From NCBI GenBank assembly GCA_029210725.1, contig JARGFM010000015.1, forward strand, positions 1 to 64,000: a stretch of DNA of 64,000 bases. The letters are read 5' to 3'. The notes beneath the pieces were generated by a model. It saw only the letters and a list, made by a program, of their open reading frames with translations, searched no databases and had not been told where the DNA came from. Below are positions 49,305 to 61,051 of the stretch, piece after piece. Both the position numbers and the translations under genes were made by a program. Position 1 is the first letter of the stretch. Every line of letters begins with the position of its first letter. The DNA comes from Bacteroidales bacterium (GTDB lineage: Bacteria; Bacteroidota; Bacteroidia; Bacteroidales; GCA-2748055).

Positions 49305-50882
49305 TTAACGAATTAATTTGACATCACTTTCAGGAAGATTTAATTTGACGCCATTTATCCTCAGCTCTTCGTTACTCTTATAGGTGATGGTCATTACCAG
49401 ATTTCCTTCCGTGTCGTATTTTTTCCAGTTTTTTTCCCTGATACCCATTTCATAGTATTGTTCTTCCTTCAGGGTGCCATCCGGGTAATAATATTTATGT
49501 CTTTTATCTGGATTCCCTTGTGAATAAGTACCCTCGTATTTCACTTTCCCGTTTGGATAATAGTATTTCCAGGTACCTTCCCTCAGTCCGATCACATATC
49601 GGCCCTGCTCCTCATGGTCCCCTACCTGGTAGATCCATTCGCCCTCTCGTTCACCTCCAATATAATCTCCCCTGGTAAGAATATTTCCATCGGGATCATA
49701 TTCTACAAACATCCCATCCTCTCTTCCGTTGAAATAACTTTCTTCTCTCCATTTATTTCCATTTGGATAGTACCAAATCCAGATACCCTGGTATCTGTCT
49801 CTTTCGAACTTTCCTTTCTGTTCAATTCCCCCTTTTTTGAAATAGTAAGTCCAGTTTCCCGAGCGCTGATTATCTACATAAGCCCCTTTAGCCCTGACTT
49901 CCCCTCCAGGATAAAAATCGGTCCAGCTGCCTTTCCGTCTTCCCTGTTCATCGATAATACCTTCCGAAACTTTCTGTCCCAGCTCATTATACAGATAAGC
50001 ATTTTCAACCACTCCAGCTGTATCATAAAACCTGTGTATCCCCACCGGAACACCTTCCTTATAAGCTCCGGTAAAAATAAGCCTTCCTTTCTCATCATAG
50101 GTGCTTTTCATATCCAGCAACTCTTTCAGGTCCTCATCAATTTCCTCTACAATCTTACCCCGTTCATAACGCAGGGCCATAAGCAATTCCCCCCTCCCGT
50201 CAAATTCCCTGTAGTATCCATGAAGTTGATTATCCAGATAGTGCTCCTCCTTCTTTATCTTACCGTTTTCATAATACTCCCTGAAGGTCCCCTGTTTATT
50301 TCCATCCTCATCCGTCCTGTTCAGCCGTTCCCTGTCCACCACATAATTATCCTTATACTGCACCACGGTGACCAGGTTGCTGTCCTTTGAAAATTCTCTG
50401 GATAATCCCTGCCTCTTTCCGTTTTCATAAAATACAATCAATTTCAGCTCACCTGTAGGGTAATAGTAATAGGAGGCTCCCTCTTTATTTCCCATTACAT
50501 ACAACTCCCTGGAAATCAGTGTAGGCTGACCTGGATTCAGAGGATTATTGTAACTGTATTTATTTGAATACCCGTTTTTTTCCCCGACCGTATAAGATAT
50601 CTGTTCGGTAAGTTCTCCTGCCTGGTTATAAAAGTTCCAGATACTATCCAGTAAAAAATTCGTTCTTCTTCCTTCTGATTTAATGATCCCTGGCACATAA
50701 TACGTACGCCAGTAACCATCAGGTTTTCCATCCCGCATGGTTCCCTCACTGGATACCTGGTTGTTTGGATAAAAAAACTGTACAAACCCATTTTCCACCT
50801 CTTCTCCCTGGCCGGATAACTGTATATGCCAGAATCCCAGAATAAGGAGGGCCAAGACATATGGATAGATGCATTTTAACAT
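49305..50882 (-). CDS. Secreted MORN/YwqK-repeat protein
   Basis: The 525-residue protein has a signal peptide ([18 protein letters not shown]) and is built almost wholly of roughly 22-24-residue repeats of the type G-x-W-x-YY-x-NG-x-x-x-x-EG-x-Y-x-x-G, for example [16 protein letters not shown]. These are the MORN-variant repeats of the YwqK family. Databases often call such proteins 'antitoxin YwqK', but nothing here suggests a toxin partner. The repeats probably form a long beta-solenoid at the envelope. It lies between nadA and ruvB on one strand. Confidence 0.88.
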
Positions 50883-53568: not shown

Positions 53569-56500
53569 ATGAAAGTAGTCGAACTGCTTGCAAAACTACG
53601 CGGAGAGAAAATAGAGAACTGGTTTGACCTGGGACTTTTTCTGGATCGGATCAAAGAGGAGCGGGGCTATCCACCCATTCGCCTGCCGGGGGCCTACGAT
53701 GAATTCAAAGAGGTTTGCAGATCCGGGGGAGTGGCCTTTCTTACCTTTCATTATATGGTTGATGGCGTCACCACAGAGGTAGATAAATATGCTGCATTAA
53801 TGAAGCGTAATATACCAGGTACTCCCATTCATTATATTGCCGGCAGGATCCATTCCCAAACAGCCCCTTTCATCCAGAACGAATACAGGAAGAAGATAAT
53901 TCCGGAGCTATCCGGTTTTGATGAGTGGGAACTCTATAAGGACTTCTTTTTTAAGAAACTGGAAAGAGGAGGACCTGCCTATAATGAACTTATCCGGAAG
54001 TTTTGGATACAAACTCTGGACATAGTGCATAAACTGGGTGAATATATTGAGGAACAGGGAATCAGCCTGCTCTATATCATTAATGTATGTTCTAATCCCG
54101 GAAATGTAGCCTATGCCCTGGCCCTGGTGTTGCTGTCTGAATTTTTGAAAATACCGGCGATTAATAACAATCACGATTTTTACTGGGAGGGAGGGATGTG
54201 CCTGACCGACAGGGAGAAGAAGGGAACCAGGCCGGGTCCCCGTGATTTCTTTTTTACCAACTGTCATCTGGGAGAGGTTTTCTCGATCATAGAAACCCTG
54301 TATCCCTGGCAGTCCCGCACCTGGATGCAGGTAAATATTAACAGAGAACAATCCGAACACCTGGTGAAGCTAAACGGGCACAACCCGGCCAATGTCATGG
54401 AAATAGGCACAGCAGTGGACACCACTCTTTATACCAAAACAGATAAACGAAAAAACATCAACACCTTTTTGCAGCTGGAGAAAATTCTTTCGAGGTATAC
54501 CGAAAGCCTGATCAGTTATTCGGTTGAGGATGTTTTGTCGGAGGGACTGGTATCCGGGAAGAATCCCAGACCTGTTCTGATCGGGGAGCGCACAAAGCCG
54601 GTGGAAGCTTTTATTGGAGAGAACATTATTCTCCTGCAACCCACGAGAATTTTATCCAGGAAAAGAATAGAAAGTTCCTTTAACCTTTTTCTCAAGATGT
54701 TTCAGGAGGAGGATATGAAATTACGGTTCCGGCTGACCTCTCATTTGAAGATAACCCTGCTTATCACAGGTCCCGTTGCCGCAGGACACTTTGCATATTT
54801 TACAAAATTGATTGAGAGATTCAGGGACCTTCTGAATGAAGTTATTCCTGAATTGAGACAGCGGGTTTACCTGGCGTTTTTGTTTGGAGAGACCGACCGG
54901 GAAAGCTTCAAAGAGCGATATGAGAATCCCATCGGCATTGCAGAGCTTTATAATATTTCCTCGCTGGTGCTGTTGCCCAGCAAAACAGAAGGGCGGGGAT
55001 TGCCAATTATTGAGGCGACAGCCTGCGGAACCCCCATTTTCTGCAGGCGATATGAACCCGAACAGGTTTTTTCGGAAGTGATTGGAGAACACCTTGGTGA
55101 GAGGGAGCGTTTAAAAGTGCTGGAATTTAAGGGGAAAAGAATATCAAAAAGCATGGTCAGGAAGATCACAGACAGAATTTTTTTCCCACACCGCTATACC
55201 GATGAAATCAGGCACAACCAGAAAGTGGTAATGAAGAGGTACAGCCTGGAAGCGCTTAACGGGAACCTGCACCAGATCCTGCTTCGTCTTTTTGCCCAGC
55301 TTCGTCAGCAAAAAACAGTCCTGAGAAATGTAAAGGAAAGCCTGGATGATTACAGGGAAATGGTAAGTTTCAGCGATGAGAACCTGGAAGCCTTACTGGA
55401 CAACAGGAACAGGCAGTATCTTCCCGGCTATTCGAAGCTTTCATTTATGTTTATGCTGAAATCACTGATTGATCCCAGTTTTTTCAGGATAGAACAACAG
55501 AGGATCCGGGGAATGTCCTTTCATTTTTCCCGGGCCATAGTCACTGAGGATCCCGATTCGGAATATATTCCCGGGAAGATTATTAACCAGTTTTATAATG
55601 CGGTGGAGACGCTTTTCGAATACCGGGAGGGAAGCAATTCCATACAGCACGATCATTCCATGTCGTACCGGCACCGGAATAACTATCACTATCCCTATCA
55701 GGACTTCACCTTCCAGGAGTTAACCGGATTAATTAATTTGCTTTACATCCGTATTGTTCAACCGGTACCCCGCAATAAGATAGACCTGAGCCCGCAGTTT
55801 TTTACAGACTGGAACCTGGCTCTGATGCAGCTGACAGGAAGCTCGCACCTGGCTATTGACAACAGGAAACGATTAATAGAAAGGCTCAGGCAAAACCGGC
55901 CCATTGCCTACTTTCCCGGGGCTTATATTATGTATGAACTGGAGTTTTTTGCCTTGCAGTCGATCCGTTCCCGACTGCATCTCCCCCTGGAGACGATGAT
56001 CAGCAGGCAGATGCTGGAGAAGGAAGCGGCATTTTTGCAAGCGGTCTATATATTTGCCCAGGAAAAAAAACTTGGGAAACAACTTAATAAAGATGAAATC
56101 ACCGATTATATCATACAGGGAGTTTCGGAAGAGTTGAAATTGCTGTATGAGTTTAAGGTGATTCAGATCATTCGCACCAAACAGGTATGTGTGGGTATCC
56201 ATTTTCCTCAACTGGGGAAAGAGGCATTGAAAGTATTACGAAAGATCAGGGATCAAAACGGCTATATCCTTACCAATCGAAGCAATGCTTCTATGACGAC
56301 CGACCTGGTCGATATGGACCGTTTTCATATTGGCAAGGTTTCCAATGAGTTTACCGCTCATATGATGGGTATCCCGGTTTCCAGCGGATATATTCAATTT
56401 GTGCCGGCAGGGCTCAGGTCCACTTTGTCATATCCGGCTCCTGTTCAGACATCAAAGGAGTTTGACCAGGGAATGAAGAGCGAGCTCTATAAAGAGCTTG

Positions 56501-57726
56501 TGAAAGAACTGGGAGAGGAAAGGGTATTGGCCAATATCAAAGAAGATGCCGTGTTTAACGGAAGCCCGTTGAAGCATGTGCTTTCGGGGATGCGAGGTCA
56601 GGGATCAAAAAATAAAGCATTGGTTTATGAATTTTTCAACGGTCTTTTCGTCGATGGCTTGCCTTACAGCGGGGCCATAGCCAGGCTGAATCTTAAACAC
56701 AGTCCCTGGGACTTTGCGGCTGTCTCCTCCGTTGATCAGCCCAGGTCGGTTAGCCAGTTTGCAGAGGCATTTTGTAAACAAAGTGGTCATCAGGCCCGGA
56801 TTGCCTGGAATGGAGGTTATATCTTGAATGCAGAGCTGGTTGGAAAACTCGGGCTGCCCGAAACCTATATCGGTGCTCCTCTGGGGCTGCTGATAAGCGA
56901 AGGAATAGTAAGATCAGTCCCCCTCTTTAATAAACCTGCACTCCTGATTTACAAGGATGGTTCCGTAGATATCAGGCGGGTAAATAGCAGCGGGGGATTC
57001 AAGGTTTTTTGCAGAGGGAACGAGATTGTCTTCAGTAGCCGGGATTATAACAGGGCAGGGAACAGCATAAGGCATGCTTATTATGACCTGCTTTATCCGG
57101 ATGAAATGATCCAGGGCGGAGGCAGAACCATTATCCGGCTCTCCGGGAATGAGGTGAAAGAGGTGTTGCAAACCAGGGAAGGAGAACAGGTACGCCATAT
57201 TCCGGTGGGACTTACCCTGGCCCTGAAGCCTTTCGAAATACCGGAAGATTTACAAGCAGGTGAGTTTATGGATCTGAAAATTCCCGGCATGGAAGAGGTC
57301 ATGCACGCGGTTGAGGCCGGACCTATGTTGCTGGACCGCGGCAGCTGTGTTATTGATATGGAGCTTGAGGGGTGGAATAGCAATAACTCCATTCGCACAC
57401 AGGCTGCCAGACTGGATTATACGAATATGCGCGGACCCAAGATAGCCGTAGGAATTAATCGGAAACATGAACTCGCGGTGCTGACCATAAACGGAAGAAT
57501 CAGGGAGTCAGTCGGGGCGACTCACCACGATATGGCGGAAATACTTCTCAAACACGGGATGGAAAAGGCCATGGGTTTTGATCCCGGCGGAAGCAGCACC
57601 CTGGTGGTGGGCACTGATACTTTGAATATTTCCCCATATAACAGCGAGTATGAGCAGGACGTTTATGCGCTCCCCCCGGAGCCCAGAGCGGTTTCCAATG
57701 CCATAATCGGATTTATCAGGGAGTAG
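53569..57726 (+). CDS. GT4-type glycosyltransferase fused to a C-terminal phosphodiester glycosidase (NAGPA/DUF2233)
   Basis: This 1385-residue single frame has three parts. Residues about 60-590 look like a GT-B glycosyltransferase of the GT4 kind: YMVDGVTTEVDKY at the N-lobe, NNNHDFYWEGG, LLQPTRILSRKRIESSF and E474-x7-E482 in EGRGLPIIEATACGTPIF. Residues about 590-1040 match nothing I know; they contain HFPQLGKEALKVLRKIRDQ and GYILTNRSNASM. Residues about 1045-1385 are a phosphodiester glycosidase as in NAGPA: WNGGYI (1080-1085), VEAGPMLLDRG, GATHHDMAEILLKHG, FDPGGSSTL (D1338) and RAVSNAIIGF. No signal peptide or clear membrane segment is seen, so both activities appear cytoplasmic, which is odd for a NAGPA domain. 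hemW follows 2 bp later. The substrate is unknown. Confidence 0.88.
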   Translation: MKVVELLAKLRGEKIENWFDLGLFLDRIKEERGYPPIRLPGAYDEFKEVCRSGGVAFLTFHYMVDGVTTEVDKYAALMKRNIPGTPIHYIAGRIHSQTAPFIQNEYRKKIIPELSGFDEWELYKDFFFKKLERGGPAYNELIRKFWIQTLDIVHKLGEYIEEQGISLLYIINVCSNPGNVAYALALVLLSEFLKIPAINNNHDFYWEGGMCLTDREKKGTRPGPRDFFFTNCHLGEVFSIIETLYPWQSRTWMQVNINREQSEHLVKLNGHNPANVMEIGTAVDTTLYTKTDKRKNINTFLQLEKILSRYTESLISYSVEDVLSEGLVSGKNPRPVLIGERTKPVEAFIGENIILLQPTRILSRKRIESSFNLFLKMFQEEDMKLRFRLTSHLKITLLITGPVAAGHFAYFTKLIERFRDLLNEVIPELRQRVYLAFLFGETDRESFKERYENPIGIAELYNISSLVLLPSKTEGRGLPIIEATACGTPIFCRRYEPEQVFSEVIGEHLGERERLKVLEFKGKRISKSMVRKITDRIFFPHRYTDEIRHNQKVVMKRYSLEALNGNLHQILLRLFAQLRQQKTVLRNVKESLDDYREMVSFSDENLEALLDNRNRQYLPGYSKLSFMFMLKSLIDPSFFRIEQQRIRGMSFHFSRAIVTEDPDSEYIPGKIINQFYNAVETLFEYREGSNSIQHDHSMSYRHRNNYHYPYQDFTFQELTGLINLLYIRIVQPVPRNKIDLSPQFFTDWNLALMQLTGSSHLAIDNRKRLIERLRQNRPIAYFPGAYIMYELEFFALQSIRSRLHLPLETMISRQMLEKEAAFLQAVYIFAQEKKLGKQLNKDEITDYIIQGVSEELKLLYEFKVIQIIRTKQVCVGIHFPQLGKEALKVLRKIRDQNGYILTNRSNASMTTDLVDMDRFHIGKVSNEFTAHMMGIPVSSGYIQFVPAGLRSTLSYPAPVQTSKEFDQGMKSELYKELVKELGEERVLANIKEDAVFNGSPLKHVLSGMRGQGSKNKALVYEFFNGLFVDGLPYSGAIARLNLKHSPWDFAAVSSVDQPRSVSQFAEAFCKQSGHQARIAWNGGYILNAELVGKLGLPETYIGAPLGLLISEGIVRSVPLFNKPALLIYKDGSVDIRRVNSSGGFKVFCRGNEIVFSSRDYNRAGNSIRHAYYDLLYPDEMIQGGGRTIIRLSGNEVKEVLQTREGEQVRHIPVGLTLALKPFEIPEDLQAGEFMDLKIPGMEEVMHAVEAGPMLLDRGSCVIDMELEGWNSNNSIRTQAARLDYTNMRGPKIAVGINRKHELAVLTINGRIRESVGATHHDMAEILLKHGMEKAMGFDPGGSSTLVVGTDTLNISPYNSEYEQDVYALPPEPRAVSNAIIGFIRE

Positions 57727-57728
57727 GC

Positions 57729-58856
57729 ATGCAAGGGATTTATATCCATATACCCTTTTGCCGGAAAGCCTGCAGGTATTGTGACTTCTTTTTTACGGTG
57801 AGCCTGCAGTACCTGGACCGCTTTGTAGAAGCCCTGGTGCAAGAGATCCAACAAAAGGGAGAAGCAAATCCGGGCCGCACCCTGGAAACACTCTACCTCG
57901 GCGGAGGAACTCCATCGCTCTTGTCGCCTGTTCAGCTGGAAAAAATTGTGGATACCATTGGCAGGTACTTTACTTTTGTGAAGGATCCGGAATGGACCAT
58001 GGAATGTAATCCGGATGATCTGGATCAGATTACCTTAAACAGGTTGTACCAGATGGGTTTTAACCGCCTGAGTATTGGAATCCAGTCGTTTCACCAGAAA
58101 GATCTGGAGATCATGCGGCGCTCCCATCATGCCGGGCAGGCCGAAGAAGCGGTCAAACGGGCTGCCGGTTGCGGATTTAAAAACCTGACCATGGATCTGA
58201 TCTATGGAGTTCCGGGTCTGTCCACCGCCGGGTGGGAAGACAATATTTCACGGGCACTCTCTTTACCTGTAAACCATCTTTCCGCCTACCACCTGAGTTT
58301 TGAGCCGGGTACTGTATTCGATCACTGGAGGAAGAATGGAAAACTGATCCCGGTGCCTGAGGAGGAAAGTGTAATACAGTACAGGATTCTGAGAGAAAGT
58401 CTGCTTTCTGCAGAATTTGAACATTATGAGCTTTCCAGCTTTGGCAGAAGCGGATACTTTTCGAAACACAACATGCTCTACTGGTCGGGACGGCCCTACC
58501 TGGGGCTTGGTCCCTCGGCTCACTCCTATGATGGTGAGCGGCGGAGCTGGAACACCTCCTCCTTAAAAGAATACATGGAGCGTGTTTTTTCCGGAGGCAA
58601 AAAGGACGAGACAGAACATCTGACAGGGACTGAAAAATATCACGATTATTTGATTACTTCACTGAGAACCAAATGGGGGGCCGATCCCGTTCACCTTGAA
58701 CTAGTTTTTGGTCTGGAGTACAGGCTGCATTTTGAACAGCAGGCTCAGGCTTTTCTTCGTTCAGGAAGCATGATAAAAACAGACGGAAAAGTGGCCATTG
58801 ATCCGGATCAGTGGCTGATAACTGATCATATACTGCGGAAGCTGTTTATGGACTAA
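57729..58856 (+). CDS. hemW: Radical SAM heme chaperone HemW
   Basis: The 375-residue protein is of the coproporphyrinogen-oxidase-like radical SAM group now known as HemW, which passes heme to respiratory enzymes. It starts directly with IYIHIPFCRKACRYCDFFF, carrying the CxxxCxxC cluster site (C12, C16, C19 region). LYLGGGTPSLL, NRLSIGIQSFHQKDLEIMRR (in part) and SFEPGT follow. True oxygen-independent HemN carries a longer N-terminus, which is lacking. It lies 2 bp after the fusion glycosyltransferase and overlaps the convergent GT4 gene by 4 bp. Confidence 0.94.
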   Translation: MQGIYIHIPFCRKACRYCDFFFTVSLQYLDRFVEALVQEIQQKGEANPGRTLETLYLGGGTPSLLSPVQLEKIVDTIGRYFTFVKDPEWTMECNPDDLDQITLNRLYQMGFNRLSIGIQSFHQKDLEIMRRSHHAGQAEEAVKRAAGCGFKNLTMDLIYGVPGLSTAGWEDNISRALSLPVNHLSAYHLSFEPGTVFDHWRKNGKLIPVPEEESVIQYRILRESLLSAEFEHYELSSFGRSGYFSKHNMLYWSGRPYLGLGPSAHSYDGERRSWNTSSLKEYMERVFSGGKKDETEHLTGTEKYHDYLITSLRTKWGADPVHLELVFGLEYRLHFEQQAQAFLRSGSMIKTDGKVAIDPDQWLITDHILRKLFMD

Positions 58857-60148
58857 GATTCTGCAGATACCAGGGCCCTTCGGATCAGCCGGTTAAGTTT
58901 TCCCCTGAGAGTGTCATAACTGAACTCTTTCTTACCCAGCTTGAAATTATAATCAGCAATTTCTTCGGCAAGGGTGGGATTGTAGATTATTTCCGCCATT
59001 TCACCGACGGCTTCACGGGTAAGTTCTCCATTCTCAATCATAACAGTTTTAAAACCCTTACTACCAATATCGGGCAGATAAACCGGTTTGTAGTTGTTTA
59101 CAAAAACAGGTCGTCTGGCTAAAACAGCTTCCACAAAGGCATTCCCAAAACCCTCATAAGTACTGAAATAGGTACAGGCAGTGGCCTTGGCATAGGCGTC
59201 GGAGAGAGAAAAGCGCAGCTCTCCGGCTCCATTGGAGAGACCTTTGTTATGAAACAGGTGGAAGGCAAAACCAAATTGTTCACCCAGCTTAAGTTCGTGT
59301 ATCAGGTTTACCAGTTCGTTGTAATAGGCACTTCCTGCATCATCTGCGTAATTGCCGGTAATGATCAACTTGATTTTTTTGTCATTCAGTTCATGGATGA
59401 GGCGAATGGCAGTCTCAATCCCCTTGCGCCTGACAATACGGGTAATCTGAAACAGGAAAATATCTGTTTTCCTAAATCCCAGATGTTCGGCCAGGTTCTC
59501 ATTTTTCTTTGTATGCAGCCCGAAAGGCTGATCAAAATTCATCACATTCGGCACGATGATTGCTTCACGCCCAAAACGCTCCTGCAAAGTATTGGCAGCA
59601 TGACTGTTAATTACTGCATGGACCGAATTGGGAGCTCTGAGAGGAAATACATCCGAAATAAAATCATTAATTTCCCTGTGTGGCGATAAGTACCTGTCGC
59701 CACGCTCCCAGGCAAAATCATGATCGTGAGTAATGGTAGGTATCCCGGTTTTATGCACCGCTTTATTGATGGCCATTCCCATCTCCAGGTGGGAGGGAAG
59801 AGCAGAAGCATTTTCAGAAATGAGCAATTCGATATGTTGTTCCTGTATCCAGCGAATAATTTTTTTATAGATCACCTTTGAATAAAGATTCAGGTGCTCG
59901 ATGAGCTCTTCCGGATTGGTTTCAGGATAGAAGAAAGCTTTTTTCTGACTCCAGAAACTTTCGGGAGAGAAGAAGGACATTTCAGGAACCAGCGTTTCAG
60001 TATCCGGGTTCATAGGGCGTTCCTGGTACTGTCCGGAAAGAGTAAAAACCTTGTGGCCCATGCTTTTCAGGACCTCGATCCATTTTTCCGTTTCCAGAGC
60101 GACACCATCCACGCCACCAATTCGCCCGATGATAACACCAATATGCAT
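58853..60148 (-). CDS. Glycosyltransferase, GT4 family
   Basis: The 431-residue GT-B enzyme opens with IGRIGGVDGVALETEKW, the nucleotide-sugar enzyme N-lobe. THDHDFAWERGDRY follows, with IVPNVMNF and FQITRIVRRKGIETAIRL at the C-lobe start and the E-x7-E motif in EGFGNAFVEAVLARRP. The VDGV-x2-E and HDF-x-WE motifs recur in the N-terminal part of the 1385-residue protein, so the two are probably distant paralogues. Donor and acceptor are unknown. It lies 15 bp downstream of the coiled-coil protein gene, likely in one unit. Confidence 0.92.
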   Translation of the reverse strand: MHIGVIIGRIGGVDGVALETEKWIEVLKSMGHKVFTLSGQYQERPMNPDTETLVPEMSFFSPESFWSQKKAFFYPETNPEELIEHLNLYSKVIYKKIIRWIQEQHIELLISENASALPSHLEMGMAINKAVHKTGIPTITHDHDFAWERGDRYLSPHREINDFISDVFPLRAPNSVHAVINSHAANTLQERFGREAIIVPNVMNFDQPFGLHTKKNENLAEHLGFRKTDIFLFQITRIVRRKGIETAIRLIHELNDKKIKLIITGNYADDAGSAYYNELVNLIHELKLGEQFGFAFHLFHNKGLSNGAGELRFSLSDAYAKATACTYFSTYEGFGNAFVEAVLARRPVFVNNYKPVYLPDIGSKGFKTVMIENGELTREAVGEMAEIIYNPTLAEEIADYNFKLGKKEFSYDTLRGKLNRLIRRALVSAES

Positions 60149-60163: not shown

Positions 60164-61051
60164 TTACTTCAGGACAAAGGAAGATTGGCCGATCATTTTA
60201 TCTTCCGAGTAGAGCTCAACGGTATGTTCACCCGGTACAATCTCCCCATCATTGTTCCAGAAGATAGAGACAGGCAGATCCTCATTTTCGTAGTTGATAA
60301 GCCTGGAAGCAGAGGCCGGAATCTGTTCGCCTTTGAATTCAATCATTTCCAGTCCGGGAGATCCCAGAACCACCTGATCGGGCCTGATAATTCTCAGATA
60401 GATGTTTTTTTCTCCTGCGGGAGTCACCTTGTTGGCTCTGAGGACAAAGTCCACCCTGACCTTAACAGCAGTCCGGATGCGTTCGGTGTTCTTGTCACGT
60501 TTATTTAGCAAAACCAGGCCGATTTGTGATGCCTGAAGCGTGGTAGCCAGATCCTTGATCTCTTCCAGCTGGGATTTATCTTTTTCAAGCTGTTCCTTTT
60601 CCGTGGTCAGGCGCAGTTCGGTATTACGCAGCTGCTTATTCATGGCCAATAACTCCTGGTTTTGCATATTCAGAGAGTCGATCTGAACGATATAACTCCG
60701 TAAAACAGAGCGGAGGGTCTCCATCTCTTTACGGTACATACGGATCTTGTAGGCATCTTCTGCCTTAAGAGAGATAAGCTTATCAATTTTCTCCTGCTGT
60801 TGCTGCATCTCCAGCTGCATCTCCAGATTATTGGTTTCAAGGGTATCATACCTGAAATAGATATTGCGCAACTCACCCTCCAGAGAATCTTTCTCCATAC
60901 GAAAGAATTCTGTTTTTTCAGCCAGATCTGCAGAAACCAGGTTCAGATTTTTCCGCGTATCCAGAAGCATATATACGGCAATACCCAGAATAACAACCAG
61001 TAATCCGAGTACTCCGTAGAGTGCATTTACATTGGTTTTCTTTTCAGCCAT
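60164..61051 (-). CDS. Membrane-anchored coiled-coil protein
   Basis: The 295-residue protein has one N-terminal transmembrane helix (YGVLGLLVVILGIAVYMLL, residues 12-30). A long coiled coil follows (about 35-175, with LEMQLEMQQQQEKIDKLISL and LRLTTEKEQLEKDKSQLEEI), and then a beta-rich C-terminal domain of about 110 residues (VKVRVDFVLRANKV, EHTVELYSEDKMIGQSSFVL). Orientation suggests the coil and C-terminal domain lie in the periplasm. I recognise no family. It has its own -7 element and leads into the GT4 gene. Confidence 0.85.
   Translation of the reverse strand: MAEKKTNVNALYGVLGLLVVILGIAVYMLLDTRKNLNLVSADLAEKTEFFRMEKDSLEGELRNIYFRYDTLETNNLEMQLEMQQQQEKIDKLISLKAEDAYKIRMYRKEMETLRSVLRSYIVQIDSLNMQNQELLAMNKQLRNTELRLTTEKEQLEKDKSQLEEIKDLATTLQASQIGLVLLNKRDKNTERIRTAVKVRVDFVLRANKVTPAGEKNIYLRIIRPDQVVLGSPGLEMIEFKGEQIPASASRLINYENEDLPVSIFWNNDGEIVPGEHTVELYSEDKMIGQSSFVLK

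Follow-up and report, generated by a model that had tools for sequence, protein, structure and literature searches.

What could a single bacterial protein do that joins a predicted sugar-transferring domain to two hydrolase folds, and why does it keep the company of one further glycosyltransferase? The question is raised by a gene at 53569..57726 (+) of a 64,000-nucleotide stretch of Bacteroidales DNA (positions 1 to 64,000 of contig JARGFM010000015.1, assembly GCA_029210725.1; hereafter the window), which encodes a protein of 1385 amino acids (aa), here called the giant, in which a GT4-like glycosyltransferase (GT), a DUF89 fold and a DUF2233(NAGPA) fold follow one another. Its constant companion is a gene for a 431-aa GT4 (58853..60148, -), here called the partner, and we tentatively propose, rating the chance somewhat short of even, that the two proteins together carry out, in the cytosol, the synthesis of a small soluble glycoside, probably one of an osmolyte-like or otherwise protective kind. 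The three folds are each already known; what appears to be new, in that the open-licence papers found do not describe it, is the way they are combined, along with the cryptic nature of the DUF89 domain, the altered signatures and the strict co-occurrence with the partner. Among the matches listed, this literature yielded no description of a GT4/DUF89/DUF2233 architecture.

The giant is a real protein of fixed architecture and no assembly accident, since 69 sequences align with one another end to end. As the preliminary description of this locus had reported from the sequence, its frame is open throughout 1385 codons; it starts with ATG at 53569 (+). The relatives come from a scan of a one-genome-per-species collection, in which 117 encoding stretches were found; the best 80 of the 117 were kept and correspond to 79 loci, and counts given below as "of 80" refer to these 79 fetched loci plus the window. 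A stop-to-stop frame of at least 1370 aa that aligns over its whole length is present at 68 of the 79 fetched loci, which together with the window form the 69-sequence alignment used throughout, and the other 11 loci, whose shorter frames each reach to within 2 bases of a locus end, were excluded from it. Pairwise identity between giants ranges from 41 to 98% (54 of the 69 sequences compared). Two other accounts of the frame can be discarded: an assembly join of two genes is ruled out by the 68 full-length relatives and by the presence of the gene in 13 of the 17 other genomes of the window's genus (the four misses are 69-88% complete), and variable-length insertions, suspected from matches of 4.7-5.7 kb, are ruled out because the extra length is the adjoining partner gene merged into the match. 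The fusion first noted in the window is thus genuine, and the same domain order recurs in other genomes. There is no N-terminal hydrophobic stretch (the top 19-residue mean hydropathy near the start of the giant is 0.24), in agreement with the earlier remark that the protein has no signal peptide.

Two overlapping AlphaFold2 models were built from 69-sequence alignments, covering residues 1-1062 (predicted local distance difference test 85.0, predicted template modeling score 0.83) and residues 592-1385 (83.5 and 0.83, respectively); all fold statements below compare these predicted models with solved structures and hold among the matches listed. Domain 1 (residues ~45-580; 53701..55308, +), delimited by model fold and alignment, is a predicted GT4-type transferase of GT-B fold. 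Its model matches GT-B enzymes at Z 16-17 across 350-370 residues, HepE (Z 17.3) and BshA (16.6) among them, followed by MshA (15.7), so that the N-terminal part is GT-B as first supposed, and PF00534 is matched at residues 457-496 with 31.1 bits against a cut-off of 26.4 (Pfam). E474 and E482, which had been singled out as GT4 motif residues at these very positions, are invariant in 69/69 giants, as are R360 and K365; by analogy with GT4 enzymes, we take E474-x7-E482 to be the EX7E motif and R360/K365 to bind the donor. With regard to the acceptor, BshA, MshA and the sucrose-phosphate and trehalose-phosphate synthases, all of which are found among the fold matches, use small soluble ones, and the best NCBIfam model for the giant's GT domain is the second half of NF041101, the mannosylglucosylglycerate synthase (45-47 bits against a cut-off of 640).

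The middle of the protein, for which the preliminary description knew of no matching family, turns out to have a predicted DUF89 fold (domain 2, DUF89/ARMT1; residues ~601-951; 55369..56421, +; delimited by model fold and alignment), albeit one that Pfam does not match. In the model of residues 592-1385, this domain matches At2g17340 (1xfi) at Z 19.7 (3.8 Å over 292 residues), PH1575 at Z 19.4 and AF1104 at Z 18.6, with the top unrelated fold at Z 6.5, and in the model of residues 1-1062 the same DUF89 proteins are matched at Z 16.4-17.2. At the level of sequence, residues 600-1012 of the window's giant have zero Pfam matches, and PF01937 is unlisted for 24/24 middle domains even at an E value of 10, a range in which most matches above 0.1 are removed by the filters of HMMER; the weak matches that do appear occur in single members, with one family matched in three, and none is DUF89. 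A PF01937 search of the window's own genome gave no match, and hhalign of the whole middle domain against DUF89 found no sequence link. Restricted to the core and to seven DUF89 proteins (nine picked from 20 at hand, less two without the searched motif), three local hhalign runs agreed on the register beyond about residue 826, at a probability of 0.5% and a nonsignificant E of 0.12; strand 1, the Asp-Asn strand, fell unconfidently at residues 779-784 in two windows and elsewhere in the third, and no usable alignment came from three global runs.

In the model, the core consists of six strands, which start at residues 779, 826, 865, 899, 917, and 940 and match in order six strand motifs that we provisionally assign in DUF89 sequences, in which we take the Asp-Asn pair and a second Asp to form the metal site. 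By strand count, and in a weak register, the DUF89 Asp-Asn corresponds to P783-G784 in the giants (P in 63/69, G in 67/69) and the second Asp to a variable loop. The profile alignment of the core agrees with this count from strand 2 onward, though without significance. D764 (D in 65/69), followed by D or N in 62/69, is a possible alternative to P783-G784, and strand 1 is inconsistent in register; the putative loss of the catalytic Asp-Asn in the giants is therefore likely but not proven. Ten residues of the domain are invariant, R615 together with D635, R640, E642, D695, Y700, R701, R703, D912, and R950, and because of the latter nine the sequence suggests a site that may be working but changed. 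Overall, domain 2 shares with the DUF89/ARMT1 metal-dependent phosphatases (At2g17340, PH1575, AF1104, and yeast Ymr027w) its fold, but differs from them in the lack of any PF01937 match, in the apparent replacement of Asp-Asn by Pro-Gly and in being fused to a GT.

A comparable combination of a kept fold and a changed signature is found in domain 3 (residues ~1016-1385; 56614..57723, +; delimited by Pfam, model fold and alignment). Here, PF09992 (NAGPA) is matched at residues 1233-1379 with 56.1 bits against a cut-off of 25, over model positions 59-166 of 169, and the model matches Slr0280 at Z 17.4 (root-mean-square deviation 7.9 Å), guinea-pig NAGPA (6pku) at Z 16.2 (2.8 Å over 240 residues) and BACOVA_00430 at Z 15.4. 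The domain had been described as complete-looking. The fold and the motifs WNGGYI (1080-1085), FDPGGSSTL (1337-1345), and RAVSNAII (1373-1380) are in place, and N1081, P1290, G1309, R1310, G1316, D1338, G1340, G1341, S1342, N1353, and R1373 are kept in the giants. At the level of single residues, however, it is not complete, since five positions that vary little or not at all among 26 ordinary members of the NAGPA family from the phylum (each retrieved by similarity to the giant) are fixed otherwise in 69/69 giants, namely R to K1291, T/S to I1292, D to N1308, N to G1336, and G to P1339. The loss of catalytic residues, which had been named as what would overturn the assignment, is thus partly borne out, in that these five family-typical positions are changed and D1338, G1340-G1341-S1342, N1081, R1310, and R1373 are kept. 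Guinea-pig NAGPA agrees with its bacterial relatives at the five changed places and differs at R1310 and P1290. For this fold as for DUF89, which residues are catalytic is assumed, in part from the conservation observed here. Given the changed NAGPA signature and the apparent loss of the DUF89 Asp-Asn, textbook activity should not be taken for granted in either hydrolase fold. As compared with the NAGPA/DUF2233 glycosidases (UCE, BACOVA_00430, and Slr0280), the giant retains the fold, the Pfam score and D-x-GGS, but carries K1291, I1292, N1308, G1336, and P1339 and is fused and without a signal peptide.

The second component of the putative system, the partner, aligns with the whole of NF041101 below the threshold of that model (215 bits in the window and 210-216 in three distant partners; all 4/4 partners scanned fall far below the cut-off of 640). 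Partner and giant have 45 conserved positions in common (sample of 27 loci), and relatives of the partner are found on the giant's locus at 58/80 loci, directly upstream of the giant and on the same strand at 39/80, and at 31 of these 39 loci only 10-70 bases separate the two genes; in the window's lineage, the partner lies two genes downstream of the giant on the opposite strand. Among 295 genomes sampled from the order, the middle domain is present in 17, and a partner (54-100% identity) in the same 17/17; it is present in 0/278 genomes without the middle domain, two of which show merely a 28% and a 32% relative. By shuffling, the probability of such a pairing by chance is ~10^-27 when the relatedness of genomes is ignored. 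Of 10 genomes with a giant but no partner on its locus, 9 encode one at another place in the genome (as a partial match in two cases; a control with an adjacent copy was found), including Marinifilum genomes in which ~10 kb on both sides of the giant were searched, so that linkage alone does not account for the pairing. Pairwise identities of giants and partners are correlated (r = 0.965; 1431 pairs, 54 loci), as would be expected of any co-inherited genes. Variation in partner number is also seen: at one locus (L063), two tandem partner-type GT4 genes (425 and 434 aa) stand upstream of the giant in place of the usual single copy, and a Labilibaculum genome encodes, besides its closer partner, a second and distant (32%) relative (L142, G361:C27:220120-221439).

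Above the genus level, the distribution of the giant is patchy (17/295 genomes of the order). A profile of the middle domain retrieves only frames of 1387-1441 aa, both in the order (17/17) and in the family of Winogradskyella psychrotolerans (4/4; 199 genomes), so that in these samples of 199 and 295 genomes 21/21 matches lie within the present architecture and none is a free-standing copy. Of 296 genomes drawn from the phylum, 93 give matches with E values of 0.001 or less, each of which, except in the window's own genome, is a short single-domain stretch. Named host genera, among them Marinifilum, Winogradskyella, Flavivirga, Lutimonas, Lutibacter, and Maribacter, are known from the sea, which amounts to a putative marine bias. 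The gene is also carried by metagenome-assembled genomes titled Calditrichota, Planctomycetota, Desulfobacterales, Gammaproteobacteria, and Chlorobiota; such bin titles are open to error, and the tree falls short of proving that the giant was transferred across phyla.

As regards genomic context, 29 flanking genes next to or near the pair were surveyed at 16 loci outside the genus of the window. Unrelated families are represented, such as molybdopterin oxidoreductase, histidine kinase, gingipain-type peptidase, ribosomal protein S9, formyl transferase, dihydrouridine synthase, aldehyde dehydrogenase, sodium:solute symporter, HipA-type, NB-ARC, and others; five have no family at E 1e-5, and the FlgD_ig repeat is the sole family named at two loci (L049 and, below cut-off, L059). 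Consequently, among the flanking genes surveyed, none keeps the pair constant company as a third member. Nor is any polysaccharide, surface-glycan, or glycogen family named among these 29 genes or, apart from a CDP-alcohol phosphatidyltransferase at one locus (L054), any lipid-carrier family. The proposal of the preliminary description, that a phosphoglycan is trimmed or masked and unmasked, finds no support in these neighborhoods, where the only constant element is a second GT4.

Since the soluble giant and the soluble GT4 co-occur in otherwise unrelated neighborhoods, the pair looks like a self-contained pathway. In the two-protein pathway that we propose, one GT4 would move a sugar from a nucleotide sugar onto a small, probably phosphorylated or acidic acceptor, for which glycerate or 3-phosphoglycerate would be the likeliest guess; a second sugar could then be added by the GT4 domain of the giant, and the DUF89-fold and DUF2233-fold domains might hold and process a phosphorylated intermediate within the same chain, which would make the route irreversible. 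A small soluble glycoside would be the likeliest product, because the nearest characterized family of both GTs makes mannosylglucosylglycerate and because synthase-phosphatase fusions are known for such solutes; that the product is specifically an osmolyte is a guess, and a doubtful one. In the first of these respects, the partner aligns with the whole synthase model and the giant's GT best with its second half, but both score far below its cut-off and the acceptor is here guessed; mannosylglucosylglycerate is reported from Petrotoga and from the marine Rhodopirellula baltica (PMC3694870). In the second, such a fusion is reported for the compatible solute trehalose (PMC3634074). Like these compatible-solute enzymes, the giant carries in a single chain a glycosyltransferase followed by a phosphate-removing fold; it differs from them in its GT and hydrolase families, in having a DUF2233 domain as well, and in being accompanied by a second GT4 as its constant partner.

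Several observations weigh against a pathway for a small soluble glycoside. The fold matches of domain 1 also include glycogen synthase, WaaG, and PimB', whose acceptors are large or lipidic, and the partner falls far under the cut-off of the synthase model. Both hydrolase folds seem to miss part of their usual signature, for which reason "processing a phosphate" may be wrong. The count behind the pairing ignores genome relatedness; 7 of the 17 pairs lie on different contigs of draft genomes, where some may still be neighbors; in the genome of one locus (L047, a 2.2-Mb bin), a giant is present and no partner was found; and one partner copy (L185, G659:C215:21359-22645) has an internal TGA, when the giant of the same genome is open (1415 aa). 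Finally, the substrate, the product and the activity of the pair are all predicted. A broader formulation, which we entertain with marked reserve, is that both folds have been rebuilt with new active sites and that, together with the GT4 domain and the partner, they would form an unrecognized two-protein pathway to an undescribed metabolite, mainly in marine Bacteroidota and in a few other phyla.

Other functions can be conceived for the same architecture. Provided that the altered DUF2233 site has kept its ability to cut phosphodiesters, and only then, the giant could assemble and trim or unmask a phosphoglycan or sugar-phosphodiester with an active C-terminal phosphodiester glycosidase, as first suggested. 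The fold, the Pfam score above cut-off, and the retention of D1338, GGS, N1081, R1310, and R1373 speak for such an enzyme, as does the CDP-alcohol phosphatidyltransferase gene downstream of the giant at one locus (L054), and a nucleotide-sugar or sugar-phosphodiester substrate is conceivable in that human UCE, according to PMC12024695, also hydrolyses UDP-GlcNAc; we nevertheless consider this unlikely in view of the five signature positions altered in 69/69 giants and of the flanking genes, where, L054 apart, no polysaccharide or lipid-carrier family is annotated and none recurs. The same alterations can be turned the other way, to propose that the DUF89-fold and DUF2233-fold domains are noncatalytic binders of sugar phosphates and that the giant is a regulated or substrate-channeling glycosyltransferase. 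This agrees with the changed NAGPA signature and with the position of P783-G784 by strand count, for which profile support is weak and partly inconsistent, but D635, R640, E642, D695, Y700, R701, R703, and D912 in one domain and D1338, N1353, and R1373 in the other amount to more invariant charged or polar residues than a passive scaffold seems to need, so that we deem it rather unlikely.

The glycogen synthase, WaaG, and PimB' matches would also suit a pair of cytosolic glycosyltransferases acting on a macromolecule, be it glycogen, a protein, or a surface-glycan precursor, which they would modify or prime. The lack of any surface-glycan or glycogen family among the 29 annotated flanking genes and the best family model, that of a synthase of a small soluble glycoside, make this quite improbable. 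A defense or conflict system with a GT4 effector could be suspected from the patchiness above genus level (17/295), from a weak match of the giant to PF20706 (GT4-conflict; 17.6 bits against a cut-off of 26), and from single loci with an NB-ARC (L064), a HipA-type (L051), or a RhuM (L037) gene nearby. We regard it as very improbable indeed: neither giant nor partner matches any PADLOC family at an E value of 0.01 or below, the giant is carried by 13/17 other genomes of the window's genus with gene order kept in the loci of that lineage, and searches of a plasmid collection (with the DNA of the region and the C-terminal 786 aa) and of a phage collection (with the whole giant protein) returned no match.

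The pair, if it acts as we propose, would tie two hydrolase folds about which little is understood to a single synthetic step, in a defined set of two genes that can be expressed. If a protective solute were made, it would explain part of the salt handling in a number of marine Bacteroidota; if the rebuilt folds catalyzed something else, it would amount to new chemistry for DUF89 and DUF2233. Cultured hosts exist (Marinifilum, Winogradskyella, and Flavivirga), which makes a comparison of metabolites feasible.

Some neighboring genes deserve mention in their own right. In the window, a HemW-like radical SAM gene (57729..58856, +) stands between giant and partner; it is a neighbor in this lineage and is not counted in the system. 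The partner is adjoined at 60164-61051 (-) by a gene for a 295-aa protein to which Pfam assigns no family above cut-off and relatives of which occur in 11 loci, and a 525-aa protein with MORN_2 repeats, which scores weakly against the LIC20035 adhesin model (78 bits against a cut-off of 250), is encoded at 49305-50882 (-). At another locus (L052:7783-8457), a HAD-type phosphatase gene lies directly upstream of the partner on the same strand and is possibly a phosphatase of the pathway in that lineage; a related gene is found near the pair in L051.

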